Below are positions 5,570 to 22,586 of a DNA stretch of 64,000 bases, piece by piece. Location: contig CM038918.1 in the NCBI GenBank assembly GCA_021904315.1, positions 6,277,349 to 6,341,348 of the forward strand. The letters are read 5' to 3'. The translations under genes were made by a program, and so were the position numbers. Numbering within the stretch: position 1 is the stretch's first letter; each line of letters begins with the position of its first letter. The notes beneath the pieces were generated by a model. That model made no database searches, had not been told where the DNA came from, and saw only the letters and a list, made by a program, of their open reading frames with translations. This DNA is from Sphagnum magellanicum. Taxonomy: Eukaryota > Streptophyta > Sphagnopsida > Sphagnales > Sphagnaceae.

Positions 5570-6000
5570 GGGAGGGACCTATTTGAGCTTCTTCAGCTGC
5601 TTGAGAAACAGAATGCAGCACACCATCTGGCTGAAGCTTCACAATTGCTTGAGATTCTTCCAGGATGTGCTTCACATCCAGAGCTTTTCAGCTCCTTGAG
5701 ATCAATTGCAAATGAGTGAAGACCCATTTGAGCTTCTTGAGCTGCTTGAGAAACAGATTATGCAGCACATCCAGATCACATCAATGCAAATGAGTGAAGA
5801 TCCATTTGAGCTTCTTGAGCTGCTTGAGAAACAGATTATGCAGCACATCCAGATCACATCAATGCAAATGACTCAAGACCCATTTGAGCATTTTGAGCTG
5901 CTCGAGAAACAGATTAGTTACGCAGCACATCCAGATCAAATCAATGTAGTGACTGAAGAGCCATTTGAGCTTCTTCAGTTGCTTGAGAACCAGGTTACCC
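5570..6000 (+). repeat. 78-bp tandem repeat array, partly open reading frame
   Basis: Units at 5706-5783 and 5784-5861 are almost identical. A third (from 5862) and a fourth (from about 5946) are diverged, and a decayed copy lies upstream near 5570-5700. Each full unit is 26 codons on the plus strand and reads EDPFELLELLEKQIMQHIQ with MQMS/ITS borders, an acidic leucine-rich pattern. The frame starts at 5706 and stays open to a stop at 6098 (130 codons). The minus strand is not open across the unit. Whether it is translated or is merely a minisatellite cannot be told from sequence. Confidence 0.75.
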
Positions 6001-7107: not shown

Positions 7108-10100
7108 TCAATCATCTTCATCAGAGCCCAGTTTCTGCTTCTTCCACTTATAAGCTGCTTCCAATATCTTAAGGTTGGGAGCCATGCCTGTCTCCTCTGG
7201 GAAGATGTAGTCTGTATACTCCTCAAACCTGCAGAGACAATTCAGGGTGTTAATAACAAGATAAAGATGTAGTTGCCCACATCAAGAGGATCGCAGCAAG
7301 TTCCTACTCTTTGATCTTCCATGTAGACTTAAGCTACAGACTGTAGGTAATGTGGACACACAATAGTCAAGAGAGTAGGTTCATATATTGTGAGAACAAA
7401 GCTTTGTACCCAGCAGGTGTCCCATCCTCTGAAGAGATGGGCCGCTTTCGCTTCACCCTCCGTGGCATCTTCCTTTGTACCGTTGCCACATCACCAAGGT
7501 CCACAAAGCTGGCCTCTGTATCCCGCCATTCCTCAAGTAACATAGCTCTCTCCTCTTTCTGTTCAGGTGCTGTTGTTCGTAAGCTTTCGAAAGCTCTCTC
7601 AAAAATCCCTGAGGCACCCAAAGAATAAAAGCAAGATGTCTCTCAGCAACACTGGTTTCCCATTTTGACCTGCCCACCTTACCGCACCTCTTCTACCAGA
7701 AACACAACTGCACCAACCAAAAAGATCTTGCCACAGGAACCTCACCTCTGGATCGAAGCACTTGTTGCTTTGTTTCTTCCAGCAACCTGTCAGGATCAGG
7801 CTCCCTGCCTTCCTCTTGTGCCCTAGCCTCTTCCTCTGATGGCATTGCTGCCTCAAACTTGGCAAAGCTCACCCACACTTTCAAGTGCTTTGTGCGATCC
7901 AATAGCCTCTCATACAGTTGCCGTGTTCGATCATACTCCCTTTCTGAAATCTCAAACTCAATGTATGCCTGTACCGCAAGGACAATCCTCCATGTCAACA
8001 CTGAACAAAGACAACCATGTCATTACAAATTCAACATCATAACAAATTTCCAGCAAACAACAGAGATGTGACATGCAAGAGTGTAACCTACCTTCCAAAG
8101 CAGCTCAGGCATATCAAGAACAGGCTGCGCAATGGCAAGTTCAAAAATAGCCCGGCCCCTCTCAGTCTCTCCTAAAGACCTTTCCAGTTCTGCAAACTTG
8201 CTCCACGCATAGCAGTTGGCTGGTGCCCACTCCAGATACTTTTCATACAATCTTCGACATCGGTCTATATTTCCAAGCTGCAACTCTATCTCAATGTAGG
8301 TTTTGAAAATCTGCAAATCAAATGCAAAACATGTTCATCATCAAGCTGGCTTCCCATCATAAAAAGGAAGACCTGTCCATGTCATCATTCTCAGACAAGG
8401 ATTTCAGTGAATAAAGCACTCAAAATAACCTGGAATCCAACTTCTTGACATTGATGAGGGTTCAAAGCAAATACTTTGTCCTTTGGTGCCATGCCAATAG
8501 CAGATCCCAAGATTTGTCGCATGGCTTTTAAATCTTTCTGTCGAATCTCAAACTGTGCTGCCATCAACCACATCTTTGCAAACGAGAACTTCTTATGTGG
8601 AATCAATTTTAAACACTCCCTGCAATGCCACAGACTTTCAGCTTTCAGACATCCAAAGAATGCAATCCAGCCTGAAATTTGACACTAAAGTACCGCAATT
8701 GTGCTGACAATTCCTAACTTGATATCTCTGGGTGTCTCTTAATCCCTTTTTCCCCCACATGTAAAATGCAATGAAAACTGACAGCGGAGCTGCAGCACAC
8801 ATTGAAAATTACCACAGCAAATGCATAGATATATTTCTTACCTGTAAACCTCCCTTGTTCTCTCTGGTTCTTCGGCCTCCAACTCCTCATACAATGCATA
8901 GTTAATCCTGATGTGCCACAGTACCACAAAAAGTTCAACAGATACCAGGTCAGTATGAGCAAGACAGTTTTATGGCTTGGTAGAGCCACAACACACAGTC
9001 CAAGAAATATCACTGTCTCTATGTCTCACCAGAGATAAATGTAGCGTTGCCAATAGCGTTTCTCTTCTGCAGGAGGCACATTTGCTATGGCTCTCTCATA
9101 AACCTCCTGAATTCTCAGCTTATCACCAACACTCTCTTCCAGTCGTGCATAATCAAACCACACATCGTAGTTCAACGGATTCTTTTTGATCTCCTCTTCG
9201 TATTGGAACCGCCTCTTCCCAACAATCACATCCTCAATACCCTCCCTGTCACCATACTGCTTCTCAAACTGCACAAACTTGCGGTAGAGCTCTTCAGCCT
9301 GCCCTTTTGGAATATGGTCCAAGGCATATTTGTAAATGCATCGTGCTCTCTCTACCTCCTTGAATTTCTCCTCAAATTCAGCAAAAGCAACAAAAAGCTC
9401 TTCTGTTTGTCCATCCTCACCCAGCTGCTCAATGGCCCGCTCATAGCATTGTCTCGCCTTCCCGACTTCCCCATTCTTAACTTCAAATTTTGCATACCGC
9501 ACCCAAGCTTTGACAGTGGGATGACACTGCACATACCTGTCATAGATGCCTCTTGCTCTCTCGATTTCATTGTATCGGAGCTCAAATTTGATGTAAGCAG
9601 ACCATCCATGGTGATCTGGCTCCCATGCCATCCACCTCTCCAGTATCTGCCGCGCCCCTGCAACATTCCCTAGCATCTCCTCCATGTGAATGTACTTGTA
9701 CCAGAGCTGGTCGATGCGTGGAAGCAAAGAAACCGCCCTGTCCCATACATTTCTTGCTCCGTTGACGAACCGATGTTTCATCTCCATCTCTGCATATTTC
9801 AGCCACAGAGTGGTGTTGCGGTAGTCCACTTCCAGTGCCCTCTCCCAAATCGACCTCGCCCTGGCGAAGTCTCGTTGGCTTTCTTCCCATTGTGCATACT
9901 TCACCCACACACTCGTGTTCCATCTCACTCTCCGTATCAAGTCTTCGAACTCCTTCCGCTTCCGCAACCGGTACTCCGCGAGCTCCTCGGCATCGGTGAT
10001 CTTCTGCTTCGGCGGACGGATTTCGGCCTCCTGTCTCTCCCTCGCTTCACGAAGAATTTGCTCAGCGGTGATTTGCACAGGAGCTGGAGTTTTATTCTTC

Positions 10101-10182
10101 ACGCGGGTAGGACGAGGCAGCTTCACCTCCGTCTCCTTCCTAGTCAGAAACCCTAAAGCAGGATCTGCTTCCTTCATCGCCA

Positions 10183-10183
<1 letters not shown>
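7108..10183 (-). CDS. CLF1: Crooked neck-like pre-mRNA splicing factor (CLF1/CRNKL1/Syf3)
   Basis: This is a spliceosome scaffold of the Prp19/NineTeen complex, nuclear, built almost wholly of HAT (half-a-TPR) repeats. Exons: 10183-9030, 8907-8842, 8619-8475, 8310-8092, 7968-7746, 7608-7410, 7228-7108. They join in phase to about 708 residues, matching plant and animal homologues (roughly 670-710). The large first exon carries the conserved N-terminus ([14 protein letters not shown]) and many HAT motifs such as [20 protein letters not shown] and [20 protein letters not shown]. Later exons give ELELQ-type HAT units and the C-terminal basic KRKRP segment, ending in SDEDD. The ATG at 10183 follows a long CT/GA tract. 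The gene looks complete and under normal coding constraint. A splicing partner, SYF2, lies about 10 kb away on the same strand. Confidence 0.96.
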
Positions 10184-10225
<42 letters not shown>

Positions 10226-10480
10226 GTACTTCTACACTTCCGCTAAAACAAACCACGCTAGAACTCCACAAAAGAAGAAAAAATCTTCCTCTCCATATCT
10301 CTCTCTTCTCTTGCGTCCCCTTCGTTCCCCGCCTCCCGCTCTCGTCACTCGCCGTGAACTAGCTCATCATCGTTGCCGACCAGAGCACACACACCAATCT
10401 TTCAAACGCGTGGTGAAGAGTTAGGGTTTGGCGCTCTCTTTCTCTCTCTCTCTCAGAAACGGACTTAGGGTTTGGGGCTC
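10184..10480 (-). promoter_or_regulatory. Promoter/5' leader of CLF1-like gene with GA tract and two telo-boxes
   Basis: Immediately upstream of the ATG lies an uninterrupted CT run (10187-10223; GA on the gene's strand). Two copies of TTAGGGTTT at 10421-10429 and 10465-10473 read as AAACCCTAA telo-boxes on the gene strand. Telo-boxes are known in promoters of plant genes expressed in dividing cells. Their function here is inferred from sequence and position only. Confidence 0.6.
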
Positions 10481-10499: not shown

Positions 10500-12400
10500 C
10501 TTTCTCAAATCGTTCTTTTATTATTTTATTTTATTTTATTTGACAACTTCAACTTCCCATTTGCCTCGGTAAATAAATACCCCCCACCACTTTTTTTTTT
10601 GGGCAAGAAATTGGAAATCTCTCAATTATTTGTTTATTTTTGCATATATTATTGATAGTATATGCCCAAACTAAAATAATTAATTAATTAATCAATTAAA
10701 CTAATTAAATAGAGAAATTTGTAAAGTTGTTCCAACACAGTTTATTTTGGGTATTGATTTTTTTTTCTCCCCTAAACTTTCAACCACTTTGCAAGTAATC
10801 CTGACTAGTGGTACATGTGACCTTCGGACATCCGTGATTATGCCACTCCAGTCACCTCGAACGGGCAGTGGTCTTGATCGACATTGTGCGGGTATCAGAA
10901 CCAGTCGTGTGTACCCTCAGGTTATTAGTCCGGGTATTTATTCTCAACGTGAGAAAACTCAAAACCTCGGTTTTGACATTTTGAACCTTGGTTTTCGAAA
11001 GTTTTGGAAATTTTCAAAAACACGCTCATTTATATAATCGTCGGTTCTTTCGGTAGTGGGGGGGGAGGGGAAGGTTTTTATATCCACCTTTGGTGCAGTG
11101 GGAGAAAGATGCGATCCGACCGTCATTCCTACCTTTCGAACGGCTGCAATGCTTTGTGGAGATGGTTTGTACACAGAAACCGTGATGGTCCAACCCTGTC
11201 ACAGATTGACGTCGGTCGCTTGTTGCTTCACCGGCCTCTCCCTCCCCCACCTCTCAAAACCCTCGTCACAGATTGACTAACAAATAGACAGACGTAATGA
11301 ATTAATATATAAAATATCTAAAAATAAACAGTGGGACCTCATTTCCAATTTCTCTACGTCACCACGATTCGCACCTGATTTTTGGAACCTCGTTTTTGTC
11401 AACTGGAGGATTATAGAATCGACCTCACAGATTAACGGGTCGAAACCTCGTTTTTGTCAACTTGGAGGTTGTAGAATCGACCTCGCAGATTAACGAGTCG
11501 AAACCTCGTTTTTGTCAACTGGGAGGTTATAGAATCGATCTCGCAAATTAACGAGTCGAAACCTCGTTTTTGTCAACTGGGAGGTTGCAGAATCGACCTC
11601 GCAGATTAATGAGTCGAAATGGCATGTCACAGACAGACAAAAAAATTAATATATAGGATTTGGAGATGAACTAGAGATAATAAAGAATGAAATTAAGTCT
11701 AAAAAACAAGGTGACTTTGTTTAGGGTGTGCATGTTTGAATTTCAACCATGGTAATATTGGAGCACATTTATTCAAATTTTTTACATAATACGATAGATT
11801 ATAACACAAAAAATTCAATCATTAAAAAAAAAAAAGTTTATATTATGAAATTTTTAAAATATATTTATGATAAAAAATGTATGTCATTATGTATTAAAAA
11901 ATGTAAATATATTCAGATATGAATTGGAATGATTTTTAGTCTTTATGAAATTTTGTAGTATCAATTAAACATTATGATTTAATATGATTGGGATAAGTTT
12001 ATGAACAACGTGAAAAGTTTGATAATTATCATATCACAAATGGGTGTTAGAGATTATGATCATAAATATGTGATAAATTGATATTTTAATAAATTATCAT
12101 TTTTAAATAAGAGATGATAAAATATATGAAATGGATAATTTTTTAAAAATTCAATTCAAATATTTTTAGCTAACTAATTCAAACCAAACTTAATGCAATG
12201 TAAAAACAAAAACATGTTTTATTGTATTGTTATAGATCATAAATATATCTAATATTTTTTTAATTTAATTTTTTAAATTTTTTATTAAAAAATAACATTA
12301 TATATCATTAAACATAATATTCTTGGCTTAATAAAATTGTCCTTAAAAAAAAGACTAAGCTTATTTTCTTCATAATTTACCACATTTTGGAAGGTTTTTG
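10500..12400. other. AT-rich spacer between CLF1-like and psq-module genes
   Basis: It includes a TTTTA-rich run near 10518-10540 and AT-rich sequence from about 11650 to 12400. The segment 10750-11640 is less AT-rich and contains the 58-bp repeat listed separately. No convincing coding frame or RNA gene was seen. Confidence 0.5.
11385..11616. repeat. Tandem repeat, four units of 58 bp
   Basis: Four head-to-tail units of 58 bp fit the interval exactly (232 bp). Each contains AACCTCGTTTTTGTCAACT followed by an AGAATCGACCTCGCAGATTA-like half. Copies differ from one another at only a few positions. A related phrase (AAAACCTCGGTTTTGACATT) at 10960-10980 suggests that the surrounding segment from about 10750 belongs to the same repeat family. 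Confidence 0.85.
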
Positions 12401-12404
12401 ATGC

Positions 12405-13213
12405 ATGATGATCGAACGCGTGTTCGAACCCCACCAGCTACAAACGGTTTTTAGGGTTTCATTGCACGCGCTCTCTCGTCTCGTCTCGTCTCGTCTCGGG
12501 TCGTCCCGTCCGGCCTTGAATGCGCCGTGCCAAATCCTCTGTTACATTGTAGTTGGTCTTTGCGTTGCAATTGCACGAGCATCTTCTCCCCCTTTTGGCG
12601 TCTGCAATCAGGTGCCATTTTTGCTGCAAAATCTGTTCCGTAGATTTGATTTTGATAATTTTGTTTTGCTATTTGGTGCATTTTCGTGTATTCGTGTTGT
12701 AGTATGTTGTTTTTGGTTTGAAGGAGAGTTTGGTATTGGTTTGCTTTGTTTTGTAGTATTGGGAATCTAGTAGGCATCCGGTTTTTGTGGGTGGACGGGG
12801 AGTAGAAGAAGAAGAAAAAGAAGGGGTTGCGATGAGGGGTGCTGAGAAGAATAATCTCCTCCTGTCTGTGGAGTTTGTTTACATCGGAAGATTTTAAGCG
12901 TAGGAAATTGGTGTGATTTGTTTTTTAGGGTTTATAGCAGCAGTTGTTGTGGTTTTTCTCTCTTGAAGGCTTTTTTATTAGGGCATGTTTGTGGTTCTTT
13001 GTATAGTTCACGTGCAGTCTGATGTTTGAATCACCATTAGCCATCTCTTAATTCTTGGGTTTCATTGGGAAACTTTCTTGAGTTTTTTTTTTTTTTTGTC
13101 TTACCAATCTTCCATCCACACTCTTCTCGTCTGAACAACACTTTATTTATTTATTTGGGTGGGTTTGTTTGCCATTTTTTCCATGCAATTGTTGATGTTC
13201 TGTTTTGTGCACA
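12405..13213 (+). promoter_or_regulatory. Promoter and probable 5' leader of the psq-module gene
   Basis: Telo-box cores TTAGGGTTT occur at 12451-12459 and 12925-12933. A CGTCT pentanucleotide run lies at about 12476-12500. A plausible 5' UTR splice donor, CAG/GTGCCA, is at 12611/12612, but I could not fix the matching acceptor. The open frames here show no family resemblance and are taken as leader sequence. Confidence 0.45.
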
Positions 13214-16200
13214 ATGATCGAAACCCAAAATCCTGAAGGCGAGTTGTTTCCTGGGGACCCAAGTGCAAGCCCACCAACAAATGAGTCCCCCTCTGTCTCT
13301 AAACTTCCCCCATCTTCATCACCCGGACGACTGCAGAATCCCCTTCTTCCTAGTGGTGCAGAACTTGTCATACCAGAAGAGTTGGACACTTCATCTGTGG
13401 CAGAGGTTCATCAGCCTGCAGGCACCAAACCAAGAATTGTTGTTGTGGGCGATGCACATGACAGGCAAGCTCTAGATTTTGTTGATGGGCTCAGTTCAGG
13501 GCAGGCTTTGAGTTTTGTTGGCGACCCACACAAAGAGCAAGTTTCATATCTTTTTGCAGGGTCTAGAGAGGGGCACTTTCCCAATATTGCTGCCTCACTG
13601 AGTGAACGTCAACTTCCACTTTTCACTGCTGAAAGCACACATAGGCCAGCTCCTGATGTCGCTGCTGAGAATAGAGACAGTGCAGCTGCAATTGATGTTG
13701 TTACTGAATCCACAGAAAGGAAAGTTTCAAATGTTGTTGTTGTTGTTGAGCCAAGTCAAGGGCAAACTTTAATTGATAATGGCAGAAATGGGGGTGGCCA
13801 AGCTTTCGATGTTGGTAATGATGCAAGGGAAGAGGATGTTTCAGTTGTTGCTCCTAACAGAGAAGAGATAGATTCCAGTGTTGTTTCCAGCCAAATAGAG
13901 GGGCAAGTTCCAACTCTTGTTGCAGACACCAGTGATGGGCAACAAGAAGCTCTGGTTAACAATGTTGCTGATCAGGCAGAAGGGAACCCATCAATTGTTG
14001 TTGTTGGGATTCAAGATGATCAAGCTCCAAATGTTGCTGACAGGCTACATGAAGGGGAAGCTCAAGTGGTTGCTTCTCGGAATAGAGACATGGCAGCTCC
14101 TTTTGCTGCTGCAGAAAGCAGAGGAGAGCAAGGCACAACTGTGGCTGTGGAGACCACAGATGGGCAAATTCCAATTGGTGCTCATGGGCAGAGTGAAGAG
14201 CAAGCTGACATTATGGCTGCAGGGTTTGAAGATGGGCAAGCTTCAGACGCTGCTGTGGAGGACCAAGCCCCAGTTGTTGTTGCAGAGAGCAACACACTGC
14301 CAGCTGAAAGTGTTGCTGCAGGATCAATAGGAGGGGAATCTGCAATTGCCCTCGCTGAGATGAGTGATGTGCCACCTCTGACTATTGATAGGCTGCTGAA
14401 TGAAGAGCAAGTTGCAATTGTTGCTGTGGGAGAAAGCCAAACTCCCAATATCAACACAAATGAGCAGGTACCAGGCATTCTTTTTGAGCCCAGAGAGGGA
14501 CAAACTGCATTTGTTATTGTGGAAACCAGAGAAACACAAGGTAGGAATGTTGTCACACACATTGAGTCCACACAAATTTCAGATGTTGCAGCAAATGGAG
14601 GAGATCAAGATTCAAATATGGTTGGTGAGAGCATGGAAGCTCCTCGTGTTGTTGTCAGTGCAAAGCAAATTCCAAAATTTGCTGTGGGGTCAAGAGGAGG
14701 GCCAGCTCCAAGTGTTGCTGCTGGTATGAGAGAAAGTGAATCTCCCCATGTCTCTGTTGAGGCTGGAGCTACTCAAGCTCCAAGTGTTATTGCAGGACCT
14801 AGAGAAGGCATAGCTCAAAATACTGTTTCTGGCAACCAAGCTCCATATGTTGTCATTGTTCAGGGCTTAGGTAGGCAAGTGCCAAATGCTGCAGCAGGCT
14901 CAAGAGAAGGGCAAGCTACAAATGTTGTTGCAGGGACCAGAGTTGTTGTTGAGGCTAAAGGTCTTGGAGAGCTTGAACCATCTGAAGAAGCCACTAAGCT
15001 TCCAGTGACCAAGAGGAGGAAGATTACTTTAAGGGGCCAGTGGACAAATGACACATTGCAGGAGGCCATATCAGCAGTGAGGCGTGGAGCTATGACATTG
15101 CGCCAAGCAGGAAGGCACTACAACATTCCACCTTCCTCCCTCTCTGATCACATGACTGGCAGGATTACCAAGCGTAAGTACGGGCCCCAGGGAGTGTTAT
15201 CTGTAGAAGAAGAGGCATCAATTGTCAACTGGGTGAGGCAGACTTTAGCTGATGGGTGGCCTGTGGGGATCAAGCAGCTGAAGATGAAGGTGGCAGAGGT
15301 CACAAAAGGACGACCCACACCTTTCACCAAAGGCATCCCAGGGAGCAGCTGGCTGAGGCTGTTCAAGAACAGGCATCCAGATCTGATGATAGGAATGCCA
15401 GAGGTTAGATAAAAGAAGAGCTACAGCCTTCCTTCCACATTAGGTCTTTCTTGTTTCTATACTTATCAGTCACTGTCTAGCTTCTCCTCCATTGAAGATT
15501 ATGTCTGTTGGATTCAAGTAAGGGACTGTCTTAAAGTCCTTGCATGCAGCAGGACTCAGAGTTTTTCAGGAAGCATCCAACAGATAATTGCAATTTTAGG
15601 TTTCTGATTGTGTTCTGGGAAGATGAGCAGATGTACAAAATACTAAGGCTGAACGTCTATGTTCACATGTCTCTGTGCACTAGTTTATCATGGCATTGAT
15701 GTTGTGCATATCTGTGTTGGGTTGACTTGGTGCAGGAAAGATCGAGGCAGAAATCCTCTACCAGGTCCTCTTTTCCCACTCTCACTCCCCCCCATACTTC
15801 TGCAAATGTTGATGGGCTCACAGACGCTGATTCATCTGCACCATACTCTTTACCTTATGTTTTCCAGCTTGAAGATTCCCAAGTGTCTAGTGATGTTCAG
15901 CCTCAAGGCACTGAACTGTCAAATGTCTCTCAGCCAACAGACTCACAACCATCTGCAAATACTAGGGAGCAAGTATCCAAGAGAAAGAGATCCATTGAGA
16001 GGGGACAGTGGACAAGTGATGCTTTGGAAAAGGCCATTGTAGCTGTGAACGGTGGATACATGAGTATGCGCCGAGCTGCAAGGATGTACAACATCCCTCC
16101 TTCATCCCTTTCTGATCACATTAAGGGAAAGGTTGGGAAACGAAAGCCTGGGCTTCAAGATGTGCTATCTGAGGAGGAAGAGGAGTTACTTGTCAAATGG

Positions 16201-19101
16201 GCAATCAAGACCCAAGAGGAGGGCCATCCTTTAACTATCCAGCAATTACAGTTGAAAGTTGCTGAGTTGACAAAAACAAAGGATACTACTACTGGTGGAC
16301 ACAGTCCAGGAGCCAGCTGGTGGAAGCTGTTTAAAGCAAGGCATCCAGAATTGTCAATAGAAAGGGCTGAGGTTAGATGGACTATATCCAGCATGTTGTT
16401 GTCCCTCTTGGGTTTTTGGTGGATTGATGGGTGATGTCTGAGTAAGGATATCAGGCTGCTTGCAGAGGGACCAATATGACATTTTTACCTGTGAACTGAA
16501 TTTTTCTCTCTAGTACTAGGTACTAACTATGAAATTTTGTTGCTCTTAGGCTCATTGTTTCTCATATTGATGTGGAGCTGTCTTGATTTCATGCATGCAG
16601 AAGGGCTCAATCTCAAAACCCTCAGCACCTCTACTTCCTGCTCCAGAAGGCCATTCTCAAAATGGTGAGCAACTTCTATTTTCCCAGCTGGCTGCACCAT
16701 CTCATACAAGTGCTGAATATCCCTCAGCTCTCAAACCATCTGCACCATATCCTTTTGAAATTGCTCAGCTTACAGATCACCAACTTCCAGATGCTGTTGT
16801 TGAGTCTGGAGATATGCAAGTGCCTGATGTTGTGTTGCCCAGCAAGTCCCAACCATCTGGAGCTAGGAAGCTTCAAGTGAGCAAGAAGAGGAAAAGAACT
16901 GAGAGGGGCCAGTGGACGAGTGACACTCTTGCAGAAGCGATTGCAGCCATCAAAAGTGAAGGCATGAGTTTGCGGCAAGCAGCAAGATTTTACAACATTC
17001 CTGCATCCTCACTTTTTGACCACATGACAGGCAGGATAACCAAGCGAAAATATGGTCCCCAGGGGGTGCTGTCAGATGAAGAAGAGGCATCAGTTGTCAA
17101 GTGGGTTCTCAAGATGAAGGAGGATGGACAATCTGTGTCAATCCAGCAACTGAAGTTGAAGGTAGCAGAGATCACACAGTCAAGACCCACACCTTTCACC
17201 AAAGGCATTCCTGGAGACAGTTGGTGGAATCTCTTCAAACGTAGGCATCCTGATTTGTCGATAGGAGTTACTGAGGTGAGACAATCAAGATATAAGCCTT
17301 TCCCCTTAATGTTCATATTCTTGTACTGTCTGTGATTCTTCAATGCCCCTCTGCACCAGTACTCAAAGAATGGCCACCCTTAGCATCAAGTCAGTAACCT
17401 GGCTGCCAGAGTTTGGGTGATGAGCAGGGGTTGGTTCGACCACATAGGAAATTCCCATGATTTGAGTGAGCACTTGAAGCAAGGGTCTACCAATGTCTGA
17501 TGTCATGGATATTTTGTATTTCTATATGCAGATGTTGTGGCATAATGGGCTGCAGCTTGATTGACACAGAAATTGCCATCAAGTAATTCTATCAGTGGCA
17601 GGTTTCAAGGTTGCATTGTAATGTGGTTGAATTTTGTGGGTTTGATGCAGGGAATGTTGAACTCAAACCGTTCATTGTCCACTGTACCCAATCATACAAT
17701 TACCCCTCTCAATGTGCAGCCGCCCATGGATTCACAATTTTCCAATGATGAAAATCCCACTTATTTTCAGCAAATTATTGAGGATTCCATGTATGCCTTG
17801 CCATCTGAAACACGTTCTTCTCCAAGTGGTTCTCATCTCACAAATTTTCAACCATCTGGTGCTGTTAAAAGCCACCACTCCAAGAGAAGGAGAACTGGTC
17901 TGAGGGGACAATGGACAAACGATGCTTTGGCAGAGGCCATAGCAGCTGTTAAACAAGGAGTGATGAATATGCGTCAAGCAGCAAGATTCTATAACATTCC
18001 TCCATCATCTCTTTCTGACCACTTGAAGGGCAAGATAACCAAGCGAAAGTATGGGCCGCAAGGAGTGTTATCTGAGTCTGAAGAGAAATTAGTTGTAGAA
18101 TGGCTACTCCAGAAGCAAGAGGAAGGAGAGGCTGTGTCTATCCGACAACTGAAGTTGAAGGTAGCAGAGATCACAAAAACAAGGCAAACACCATTCACCA
18201 AAGGCATTCCTGGACCTACTTGGTGGAAGCTGTTTAAAGCCAGACATCCTGATCTGTCAATATGTTCATCTGAGGTTAGAGACAATGCAAGCTTTAATTC
18301 ATGTGGGTTCAACAATAGTCTCAATCAGAAATTGAAAACCTATAGTTTGATTGGTTTTATTTCCAATATTCACATTTGGTGATGTGAGTTGTGTTGATCT
18401 GGTTGCAGGGTAGGTCCAACCCAAAACCGTACATTTGTGTCACTCCCCCGATTCCTGCTTCACCATCTCATTCTGCTGAGCAGATTCCCTCAGATTCTCG
18501 ACTTCTAGACATTGAGCATCCAGCAGATTCCCAAGCATTTCCGCCATCTGCTTTAAGTGTTTGTCAGGCAGTGGGTTTGCAACTATCTGCACCTCATATG
18601 TCAAATGTTGATCAACTGACAGAACCTCAAACTCCAAATGATGAGCAGCCCATGGATTCTGAACCATCTGCACATACTAATGTTCAAGTAGGGAAGAGAA
18701 AGGGAATGACTAAGACAGGACAATGGACAAGCGACTCATTGGCAAAGGCCATCATGGCTGTCAAACGGGGAATTATGGGATTACGACAAGCAGCAAGAGC
18801 ACACAACATTCCTCCTTCATCTCTATATGATCACTTAACTGGGAAGATAAAGAAGCGGAAGCGTGGGCAAGGTGTGTTATCTCAGGAGGAAGAGGCCTTG
18901 GTTGTAGAATGGATACTCAAGACCCAAGAGGAGGGGCATTCTGTGACTATCCAGCAGCTGAAGTTGAAAGTAGCAGAGATTACACAATCAAGACCCACAC
19001 CTTTCACAAAAGGGATACCGGGACCCACTTGGTGGAAGCTGTTCAAAGCCAGGCACCCTGATTTGATGATTGTACCAGAGGTTAGGGTGTATAAGAGCTA
19101 A
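13214..19101 (+). CDS. Five-module psq/CENP-B helix-turn-helix protein with long degenerate-repeat N-terminus
   Basis: A large unnamed gene, probably a DNA-binding nuclear protein. Exons: 13214-15403, 15736-16371, 16601-17275, 17651-18274, 18409-19080, all phase 0 at both ends (730, 212, 225, 208 and 224 codons). Each exon ends in one module. A basic KRKR-like patch is followed by GQWTxDxLxxAIxAV and an RQAARxYNIPPSSLSDH psq-type HTH. A second, CENP-B/Tc5-type HTH follows, ending in TPFTKGIPG and WWKLFxARHPDLSI. The linkers are Ser/Pro-rich. Every module stops at a Glu codon abutting a GTTAG/GTGAG donor. Exon 1 adds about 500 residues of degenerate repeats (GQxPxVVAxxRE-like). No DDE catalytic domain is visible. 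The fifth donor (19081) may splice to 19470, giving a very short tail, or be read through to the stop at 19101. The likely ancestor is a pogo/Tigger-type transposase (inference). The start is the first ATG of the frame. Confidence 0.85.
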
Positions 19102-20441
19102 TGCTGCTCCTTTCCTGTTCTGGTTTTTGTAAGATGTATCATGCCAGTTGCGTGCGGTGGTCAGGCTAGTTGCAGAGGGCATTGTGCATGATGAGTTTGA
19201 TGTCTCCATCTCTCTTCAATTTGAAGTCTATGTTTTCTCCAATCACCTGGGTGTGAGAATGCACGTGGAACAGGCCAATTCAGGAAGCATTTCAACCAAG
19301 AAGTGCCAAGTTCTTGGCCACTGACTGCAGTTTGGTAGCAGGTTCTACCAAAAGCAAGGGCTGCACAGATAGCTGCTAAATTCTGCTTGAGCTTCTTAGC
19401 TCTATGTGTGAAAGGGGGATTGGAGCTTCTGTTTGTTGCTTGATTTGTGTCCTGGTGAGGTTTGCTTAGGACTGGTGCAGTAGCTAGGTTTCCAAATAGA
19501 ATGAGCTCAATGGGAATGAGGCTGTTCGGAGGAAGTCAGAGTGATAGTGGGTGCTTGGCGGGTTTCCAATTGCACTCTTGGGCTTATTACTTGACAGCAA
19601 CAGCCCTCACTGCAGGTTTGTACTTCAGTTTAGGAAATCTCTGGCTTACAGGAAAGCCTTCCCAGTGGTGGAATTTGGAAGCATTGTCTGCAGAAACATC
19701 TGGGGTTATTTTACAGCAATTTCTTGATTTCCATGCTGAAACCTCAGTGAAATGTGTGAACACTTGTAAACTGTGTAATGTAGAAAAAGTGGTGCTCAGT
19801 GGTTAGCTTTTTACAAGAAAAGGTACATTCCTTTTCCAAGTGATGGTAGAGAGCTGGAATATCATAGTATTTTAAATGACAGTATGTCGAACCTTCTACC
19901 AGAGTTAGGCAAAGTCCACCAATGACTGGTAGTCTAACATTACATGACCCAGGATGTGATGTGCACCATGCTTTAGCTCTCTTGGAAGCATTATTTCTAC
20001 ATAATCCCTGAAGGTTCTTACAGCAGTGGAATTGTTTTCAAGATGACAGGAGACAGTCTTGAGAAATGAAATGCTGATTTTTTTTGACATGGATTCTCCT
20101 CACAAAGCAGTTGGTTGTATCAGTCAAAGCACATGGCTGACTGATATGGACAAAGTTCTCAATTGGGAGAAAGTTGACATCAAAGAAAAACATGCATAAT
20201 TTTGCAGTTGTTTTGAGCAAAAACATGTGACAAGAAGGAAACCTCTGCTCTGCTACTTAACAATTCCAGAACAGCGTTGAAGCACTCTTACTGTACATGA
20301 ATATGTACCTACTATAATGGAAAGAGATATGGGAGGTTTTGACACTGACAAATCACATGCTATCCCAATTCTACCCAGTTTGAAAGTCTCATATAAGATC
20401 ACTGAGTAAGTTTCAAGGTTGGTTTGTACCTGAAGACAACA
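19102..20441. other. Intergenic region, 3' flanks of convergent psq-module gene and SYF2
   Basis: The plus-strand frame at 19462-19806 has no family resemblance and lies where the 3' UTR or a terminal exon of the psq-module gene would be. The remainder, up to the SYF2 stop at 20442, looks like 3' UTR and spacer. Confidence 0.45.
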
Positions 20442-22586
20442 CTAATCAGGCAAAGCTGTGCCTCTCTCTAGATTATTTTTAATCTCCACAGTGTATTTGC
20501 CAAATGCTCGCTCAATCTTGCGGTTGAAGTGCTCATTGCGGTCATTGATAGAATCCACATCCCTTTCTTCATGAAACTTACGGCGCCGGCTGAATTCCTT
20601 ACGCTTGTGACCCCGATCCACAAGCTCATTCACCATCCTGTCGATATTTGCTTCTGGAAGTTCTGGAGCCTGTTGCCAGGAAAAACCAATAGACCCCACT
20701 GTGATTAACCATTTCACCTGACCAGCTGGAGTAGCTCTTTGCAACACACTCAAGACAGTCCAAGCCATATGTAGCACAGGAATTGAACAAATATTTGTGT
20801 GCCTGACATAGAATGGGTGATATTTTTAGGTGCATATGATGGTGCATGAGGCTGTACCTTGCCATACTGGAGACTGGTGCCATCACGATAGAAGTCAGGA
20901 TCTGCTTTCTGCGCCTCTATATACTCCTCCATGGTCACTTCAACGTTTTTTGTGCGTTTCTTATAGGCATTGTATAATGAGCGTTGGTTGAACACTGTCA
21001 GAAAACACACAAACCAATCAGTGCAATTCCTGGGAAAAGCATTCTCTAAAGGTTACCATCAGCTACTAATGTTTGGATGTTTGCTGCTGTGCACTAATGA
21101 CACTGGCAATCATGTTTGACAGGAAAGAAATAGGATGATATATTCTGTCCAGCAACAAACAGTTTCTCTAGAGTCCAAGAAGATGACAGAAGCAAAAGAA
21201 TTAAATTGACACTCACCATCCCATCCAAATGGGGCAGGCTTCTTATCCCATTTTTTGTATTTGTACTCAGCATCCTCCTGTGTGTCCAACATGTAAGCCT
21301 TGGACATATCCAGGCCATTGGACTCCAGCTGCTTGCCAAGCTTCTTTTGCTTCTCCTCAAACCATTTCTTCTTGGAAATTCCGCGAGACTCTTGAGGAGC
21401 ATCCTCCCGCTTCTTCTCAGCAACTATTGCCATCTGATTTGCCTTGCGAGCCGCATTCTGAACAAACCACCAGACCACAACAGTCACCACACCAGCAATG
21501 TACATTCCCATGCACCACAAACATTTCTCTGTTTCCTTCACATCCTGAGATAAAAGGAGATCCTCACCATAACAAAAAAAACAGCACTACAATACTGTGT
21601 AGAACAACAACATCAATACTGCAGAAGAGAGAGCCCCCATCACCCCTCACCAGTTTCAGCCGCAGGTCAAATAACTTCTTCTCTTTTGCACTAAGACCAG
21701 CATAAACTTCAGTATCAACAGGTTCATCAGCATTGTCTGTGCTTTGGTCTTGAGCTTCAAAGATTTGCTTTCCTTCCATCCCAGCTGATCCCTCACCACC
21801 ATTGGCCTTGATGTCTTCATCTGACTCCTGTGCACTTCCTTGTGTTTCCTTTAACTGGCGTGTAGTATATCCTCTCCCAAATGCTGTTGGTAGCCCTGCA
21901 TCTATGTGTCTAACAGAGTCTGCACATCAAGGTGTCTTTGTGGTTCAGAAAATGGATCAACAATCCATGGTCAGAGGTCATGAACACTTCCTACCTGGTT
22001 TTAAGAGCATGCCACATGTTGCCAGCATCACAAATCAACCCAGCTACACTGATGGTGTTCATCACAGCAACCAGTCCTCCAGGCCACAAGTGTGCATCTT
22101 CAATAAGTAAGCAACAGCCCTAACCCTACAGATGAAGAGACTATCAATTCATCTTCTTCATCTTCTTCTTTCTTCTTTCCTCTCTTCTCGTGAAGGTGTT
22201 CGGACCTTGAACGAAGCAATGGAGATGCTTTTCACATCCTCTCTCTTCTCCATTGATGAAAACTACAGCGGACTTCCGAATTTCATCAAATTCAGCCAAA
22301 AAAAAGGACAAAAAAAGTGATTGATTTTGGAACGCTACCATCCTCTCATACAGACAAACACAGTATGAATCCCCACAGCTAAAAAAGAAGACACAACGGA
22401 GCACAGAAAAGAACAGAACAGGGGCGAGGCGTGCTCATTACCGTCAGAGGTGGTTGCATCCAGCGGCTGTTGCTGTGCTTGAGCGATTCTGCGAAAACAG
22501 TACTCAGAGCATTCATGAAACGGGTTGCTTGCATTGATACATGCAGGGTGCACTCTCCCGTCCGTCTCCACCGAACTCATCACCAT
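20442..22586 (-). CDS. SYF2: Pre-mRNA splicing factor SYF2
   Basis: This is a nuclear splicing factor associated with the NineTeen complex; in yeast Syf2 contacts Clf1. Exons: 22586-22442, 21895-21651, 21457-21217, 20994-20858, 20669-20442, joining in phase to about 331 residues. Plant-specific N-terminus: HPACINASNPFHECSEYCF, a Cys/His-containing segment. The SYF2 core follows: KEKKLFDLRLKL, then AARKANQMAIVAEKKRED, SNGLDMSKAYMLDTQEDAEY, PAPFGWDV, LYNAYKKRTKNVEV, and the C-terminal RRRKFHEERDVDSINDRNE and EIKNNLERGTALPD. ATGs at 22586 and 22580 are both usable starts. All domains are present and there is no sign of decay. It is divergent from HISN2, with about 340 bp between the start codons. 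Confidence 0.95.

Follow-up and report, generated by a model that had tools for sequence, protein, structure and literature searches.

Domesticated pogo-type transposases are known from animals and from fission yeast, and CENP-B and psq factors of pogo origin are widespread in animals, according to the relevant sections of PMC7325037 and PMC10027918. The second of these regards helix-turn-helix (HTH) factors of the HTH-Psq type as derivatives of pogo transposases, and Drosophila Psq is described in part of PMC10379775 as a protein with four HTH domains that recognises (GA)n. Here we describe a gene of the moss Sphagnum magellanicum that lies in a stretch of 64,000 nucleotides (C12:6277349-6341348; hereafter the window) and is predicted to encode five bipartite modules, each made of a psq HTH and a CENP-B/Tc5-type HTH. 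Judged from its sequence, this is likely to be a functional host gene that arose from the DNA-binding half of a pogo/Tc5-like transposase and whose five modules would make a multivalent DNA-binding protein.

The closest described systems share parts of this layout. Drosophila Pipsqueak likewise has several tandem psq-type HTH units in one protein, as against five HTH_psq matches in the moss. It is described, in the portion of the literature on its architecture, as having four C-terminal HTHs and an N-terminal BTB/POZ domain, whereas the moss protein has five bipartite modules, one per exon, and a Pfam scan of exon 1 gave no BTB match up to E 1. With the pogo-derived proteins of the CENP-B and TIGD type the moss gene shares a bipartite DNA-binding domain of transposase origin, N-terminal in those proteins, and CENP-B 1-129 is the top Foldseek match of the module 4 model, at E 0.015. 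CENP-B and TIGD-type proteins carry one module and a DDE-derived region; the moss gene, in contrast, has five modules and no DDE match. Plant pogo-like transposases (Selaginella clade 38 and dicot clade 52, in the part of PMC7325037 that covers them) also have an HTH and a CENP-B-like domain, but the moss gene has neither a catalytic domain nor stops and is under purifying selection. Compared with a functional pogo/Tc5-like transposase, it has the N-terminal HTH pair in all five exons and lacks the DDE_1 catalytic domain. Among the papers listed by searches of the open-licence literature there was no domesticated pogo-type transposase from a moss and no multi-module plant protein of this kind, and a term search of the main text of the Sphagnum genome paper (PMC9946827) returned no psq, CENP-B, pogo or transposase.

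Five bipartite modules in one predicted gene

The gene lies on the forward strand of the window and has a five-module paralogue on contig C6. In the features below, omega is the ratio of nonsynonymous (dN) to synonymous (dS) divergence.

13214-15403, forward strand: exon 1, 2190 bp, phase 0, with the start codon and an N-terminal region of about 595 residues, then module 1 (open frame and Pfam)
14999-15403, forward strand: module 1, psq and Tc5 HTHs (Pfam; omega 0.077 against the C6 paralogue)
15404-15735, forward strand: intron 1, 332 bp, GT..AG borders
15736-16371, forward strand: exon 2, 636 bp, phase 0, linker and module 2 (module at 15967-16371; open frame, Pfam, paralogue)
16601-17275, forward strand: exon 3, 675 bp, phase 0, linker and module 3 (module at 16871-17275; open frame, Pfam, paralogue)
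17651-18274, forward strand: exon 4, 624 bp, phase 0, linker and module 4 (module at 17870-18274; open frame, Pfam, AlphaFold model)
18409-19101, forward strand: exon 5, terminal, made up of a linker, module 5 (18676-19080) and the EVRVYKS tail with its stop (Pfam, paralogue)
16372-16600, 17276-17650 and 18275-18408, forward strand: introns 2-4, GT..AG borders

An earlier note on this DNA had given exons of 2190, 636, 675, 624 and 672 bp, all in phase 0, and these were recovered as open frames at the same positions, the last counted up to its GT donor (18409-19080). It had also described each exon as closing with Glu and a GTTAG or GTGAG donor. Such a donor indeed follows all five modules (after GAG, exons 1-5 read GTTAGA, GTTAGA, GTGAGA, GTTAGA and GTTAGG), with the refinement that the frame of exon 5 continues through its GT to EVRVYKS-stop at 19101 and does not need the donor. 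We read 18409-19101 as the terminal exon because this read-through tail is the same in the C6 paralogue. GCAG stands directly before exons 2-5. The predicted protein has 1605 amino acids, with no stop in 1605 codons. Its exon 1 leader is acidic (E+D 15%, K+R 6%) and of low complexity, rich in A, V, E, G, S and P, and in both copies it has a degenerate 12-residue period that was reached by 0 of 1000 shuffles (window 13465-14990, for example EGQATNVVAGTR). This period is seen at the protein level and has no counterpart as a DNA tandem repeat; a tandem repeat scan of 13000-19200 gave three short simple-sequence rows, with a best score of 34. Linkers of about 73-91 residues stand ahead of the later modules.

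The psq and CENP-B HTH pair that had been proposed for each exon was found by profile search in all five: HTH_psq (E 8e-10 to 5e-12) and HTH_Tnp_Tc5 (E 1e-4 to 6e-9) exceed the Pfam curated cut-offs throughout, the input for exons 2, 4 and 5 beginning at the second codon. The same scan gave no DDE domain and no other domain over its cut-off, and tblastn with the DDE fragment of one family gave no match across the whole window or the C6 locus. The catalytic domain, of which the earlier note had seen no sign, was found neither in the exons nor, with this fragment, in a downstream exon within the window. The modules are 61-70% identical to module 4. Across the five window modules the psq segment NIP.SSL.DH does not vary, and most positions are likewise constant in two segments, the psq recognition segment and W..LFK.RHP of the second HTH. 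An AlphaFold model of module 4 (pLDDT 73.6) has two three-helix units, and its first-ranked Foldseek match is CENP-B 1-129 with its DNA box (probability 0.99, E 0.015, TM 0.34), followed by the LCoR HTH; the Tc3 bipartite domain comes at rank 8 (probability 0.16). When sequences are compared, the PDB entries that match best are those of the LCoR HTH (E 0.004) and of CENP-B (E 0.12).

The C6 paralogue and selection on the modules

Searching the genome (439 Mb in 31 contigs) with module 1 revealed a second five-module locus at C6:10900864-10906081, which was fetched as locus L010.

L010, 128-2278, 3427-4065, 4455-5069, 5461-6084 and 6420-7112: the five exons of the C6 copy, in the same phases as those of the window gene

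The C6 copy has the same GAG before its GT donors, the same splice borders and the same EVRVYKS-stop, and it carries the Pfam pair in all five exons, with no DDE in a Pfam scan of those exons. The EVRVYKS tails of the two copies differ by one synonymous change, and the next 700 nt are 68% identical.

We evaluated selection between the C12 and C6 copies by a Nei-Gojobori-type count with our own script, using 95% bootstrap intervals. The modules gave dS 0.414, dN 0.072 and omega 0.173 (0.131-0.229; 675 codons), and the linkers dS 0.421, dN 0.314 and omega 0.746 (0.622-0.899; 864 codons), with 0.79 for the linker region of exon 1. Individual modules ranged from 0.077 (module 1) to 0.339 (module 2). 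In the exons, 31 of 33 indels between the copies are multiples of three; for the introns and 3' flank the count is 9 of 41. The two exonic exceptions, of 5 and 7 nt, both fall in exon 1 and may compensate each other. The introns are 64-70% identical and contain many indels of lengths not divisible by three, and the 127 nt upstream of the start codon are no better conserved than the introns (71/127 identical). The pattern of indels and omega is that of a coding gene whose predicted DNA-binding modules matter and whose spacers drift. The modules thus form an intact frame under purifying selection (omega 0.173 against the C6 paralogue), as is looked for in a domesticated transposase. Chance can be excluded as the source of this arrangement because of the Pfam scores, the paralogue of the same layout and the selection test together.

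Transposon relatives and the order of events

The search with module 1 yielded 718 candidate places, and among the 150 of them that were scored, 10 are the modules of the two five-module loci. At least 140 are dispersed relatives, 31-46% identical to module 1, and 137 of these 140 have stops in the match. Seventeen of the 140 were fetched, picked by score and by hand, not randomly. In 15 of the 17 (14 of 16 without the source of the query) a DDE follows downstream on the same strand, as detected by tblastn with one copy's DDE fragment, whose source frame matches DDE_1 at 5.5e-18. Stops interrupt the module match in 14 of these 15 places, and L014 is open over a shortened match. A genome search with DDE_1 (150 of 671 candidates scored) also placed matches a few hundred bases downstream of module places, both fetched and unfetched. 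Since a DDE follows in 15 of the 17 fetched copies, we take the module to be the half that binds DNA in the transposases of a pogo/Tc5-like family, most of which have decayed. Seven related transposon copies share a left end, with no convincing inverted partner visible. Relatives were confirmed neither in prokaryote genomes (82 pattern stretches) nor in viral contigs (37 pattern stretches), as expected for a eukaryotic family.

A genome search with HTH_psq, in which all 106 candidates were scored, gave 27 places, 10 of them the modules of the C12 and C6 loci. No other two of the 27 lie side by side, so that among them tandem units occur at these two loci alone. The two of the 17 fetched places that have no DDE are intact open reading frames (ORFs) with a single module.

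L012, 3176-3916, reverse strand: intact single-module psq/Tc5 ORF of 247 amino acids
L013, 3298-3906, forward strand: intact single-module psq/Tc5 ORF of 203 amino acids

Like the five-module gene, both have the two HTHs over the Pfam cut-off and no DDE match; unlike it, they have one module, different tails and a separate branch of the tree. Between them the proportions of nonsynonymous (pN) and synonymous (pS) differences are 0.16 and 0.65 over 125 codons, and on this sequence comparison they may be selected host genes too. One genome holds several stages, from decayed DDE transposases through intact single-module ORFs to a five-module gene with a duplicate in which all five modules have been kept.

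In a maximum-likelihood tree of 27 module sequences, the 15 DDE-bearing copies form one clade (96/86), the single-module pair stands apart, and each module of C12 pairs with the module of the same position in C6 at all five positions. Support for pairs 1-5 is 99/99, 100/100, 85/40, 97/92 and 100/98, the module 3 pair being weak. Because module i pairs with module i throughout, the modules had already been multiplied when the gene was duplicated. The intron edges next to the acceptors resemble each other from position to position in C12 (p 0.002) and in C6 (0/5000). Those next to the donors do so in C6 (0/5000), whereas their resemblance in C12 falls short of significance (p 0.076). The duplicated unit probably took in intron edges, since these are alike across positions. 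EVR..K.-stop is the reading of the donor tails of C6 exons 1, 3 and 5; an exon that was once terminal may thus have been multiplied, leaving its old stop behind in the new introns. Similar modules, similar intron edges and decayed relatives that bear a DDE all agree with the exon-unit amplification of a transposase-type DNA-binding domain that the earlier note had proposed.

The age of the duplication can be set against the Sphagnum genome paper (PMC9946827), which, in its section on the subject, reports two whole-genome duplications with Ks peaks of 0.406 and 0.643, quotes ages of 189-247 and 102-122 Ma (million years ago) for two events and groups chromosomes 6, 7, 9 and 12 under one ancestor. 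The dS of 0.41 for the C12/C6 pair matches the younger Sphagnum divinum duplication, although our method differs from that behind the paper's Ks, and the gene duplication was probably part of a whole-genome duplication. Provided that contig numbers equal chromosome numbers, as we assume, it was the younger one, and the five modules are older still. SYF2-like pieces (65-71% identity) lie near the paralogue on C6 at 10911105 (reverse strand) and 10945043-10945591 (forward strand), and the paralogue of the CRNKL1-like neighbour lies on C8, not C6; local synteny backs this dating only in part. The 27 HTH_psq places in the genome include no third multi-module locus that could stem from the older whole-genome duplication.

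Alternative readings and a proposed function

We consider it improbable that the five exons are five adjacent single-module genes, or genes and pseudogenes, rather than parts of one protein. Very short read-through tails, with a stop within about 6 codons past the donor, occur in exon 1 of the window gene and in exons 1, 2 and 3 of the C6 copy; given these early stops, unspliced or early-polyadenylated transcripts could yield shorter proteins. Products with fewer modules are thus possible, without support from conservation. In exons 3-5, in-frame Met codons precede the modules, and by the first-Met test these exons could stand alone. Exon 2, in contrast, has its first in-frame Met at residue 109 and the GQW of its psq domain at residue 90, in both copies, and because this Met sits inside the psq domain exon 2 is no gene of its own. 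In exons 2-5 the linker has no stop after the acceptor and keeps the frame, acceptors and donors stand at the same places in both copies, and of the read-through tails that of exon 5 agrees between the copies, those of exons 1-4 having diverged. Five separate genes or pseudogenes, which the earlier note had named as a refuting outcome, were not found, and exon 2 needs an upstream exon. Still less credible is a decayed or composite transposon built of nested pogo-like copies. Many copies of the module family, a family of transposases, occur in the genome, but no DDE was found in the exons of either copy of the gene or, with one family's DDE fragment, in the window or the C6 locus. The 1605 codons run without a stop, whereas stops occur in 137 of the 140 dispersed places; every module is under purifying selection; and both copies have been retained at dS 0.41. 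No third tandem locus appears among the 27 HTH_psq places or the 150 places scored, out of 718 candidates, in the module search.

Several observations count against a single five-module host gene. The joining of its exons is one we infer from conserved GT/AG sites and reading frames. Some Tc5 matches scarcely exceed the cut-off (exon 1, 22.6 against 22.2 bits), and in both copies the second HTH of module 2 deviates. Confidence in the module 4 model is modest (pLDDT 73.6, pTM 0.58), and all Foldseek matches fall short of E 0.001. C6 module 3 has lost KGIP (four residues) and the psq Trp, and may be a unit in decay. The linkers, with an omega close to neutral, say little about function, and DNA binding, its sites and its cooperativity are predictions. 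The tree does not give the direction from transposon to gene, which rests on the general rule for domesticated transposases.

These data allow us to propose a mechanism for the five-module host gene. An exon with one bipartite module (psq HTH and CENP-B/Tc5 HTH) would have been multiplied in tandem to five, with phase-0 introns between, and the gene then duplicated, probably in a whole-genome duplication. The protein would consist of a long acidic, probably flexible N-terminal region and five modules with fast-evolving linkers, and would have no nuclease. Each module may still bind a short DNA site, and because the predicted recognition segment is nearly invariant all five may recognise a similar one. 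The linkers could let one protein grip several clustered sites at once, in a role as a multivalent chromatin or transcription factor of the Pipsqueak kind, and cooperative binding to arrayed sites, as the earlier note suggested, may result.

More tentatively, the protein could be a multivalent reader of repeated DNA, its five modules (ten HTHs) on flexible tethers counting or bridging clustered sites. Should the duplication be the younger of the two in Sphagnum, the five modules would have been kept as a set for about 100 million years, and a product that terminates early, behind one of the modules, could have fewer of them. An equally speculative job for the same gene, compatible with multivalent binding, would be to bind and silence related transposon copies, a CENP-B-like genome defence in place of gene regulation. 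The whole bipartite domain is common to the modules and the transposon copies (33-52% identity), and the psq recognition segments are similar (SSL.DH in the modules; TSLFDH, TSLSNH and SSLVDH in the copies). Against this, modules and copies differ in about half of the domain or more, and those copies that were examined have decayed already. Precedent comes from pogo-derived CENP-B at centromere repeats, as described in part of PMC7325037. Whichever its role, the five-module gene allows a direct test of the way in which duplicating an exon with a transposase domain leads to a multivalent DNA-binding protein, and a test of selection on module number itself.

The gene is flanked by two splicing-factor genes, both on the reverse strand. 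That at window 9026-10231 encodes a CRNKL1/CLF1-like HAT-repeat protein (Pfam) with a 95% paralogue on C8, and that at 20442-21926 is SYF2-like (Pfam match in the last exon); its matches on C6 are partial and diverged and lie close to the five-module paralogue. A 58-bp unit is repeated four times head-to-tail upstream of the gene, at window 11386-11619, with 92% matches, and a 78-bp array of 3.8 copies lies at window 5701-5997. On C6, 1 kb past the paralogue, the open frame at L010:8105-8989 matches GIY-YIG weakly, short of the cut-off, and is possibly, at a guess, a retroelement; a further long open frame lies at L010:9121-9909.

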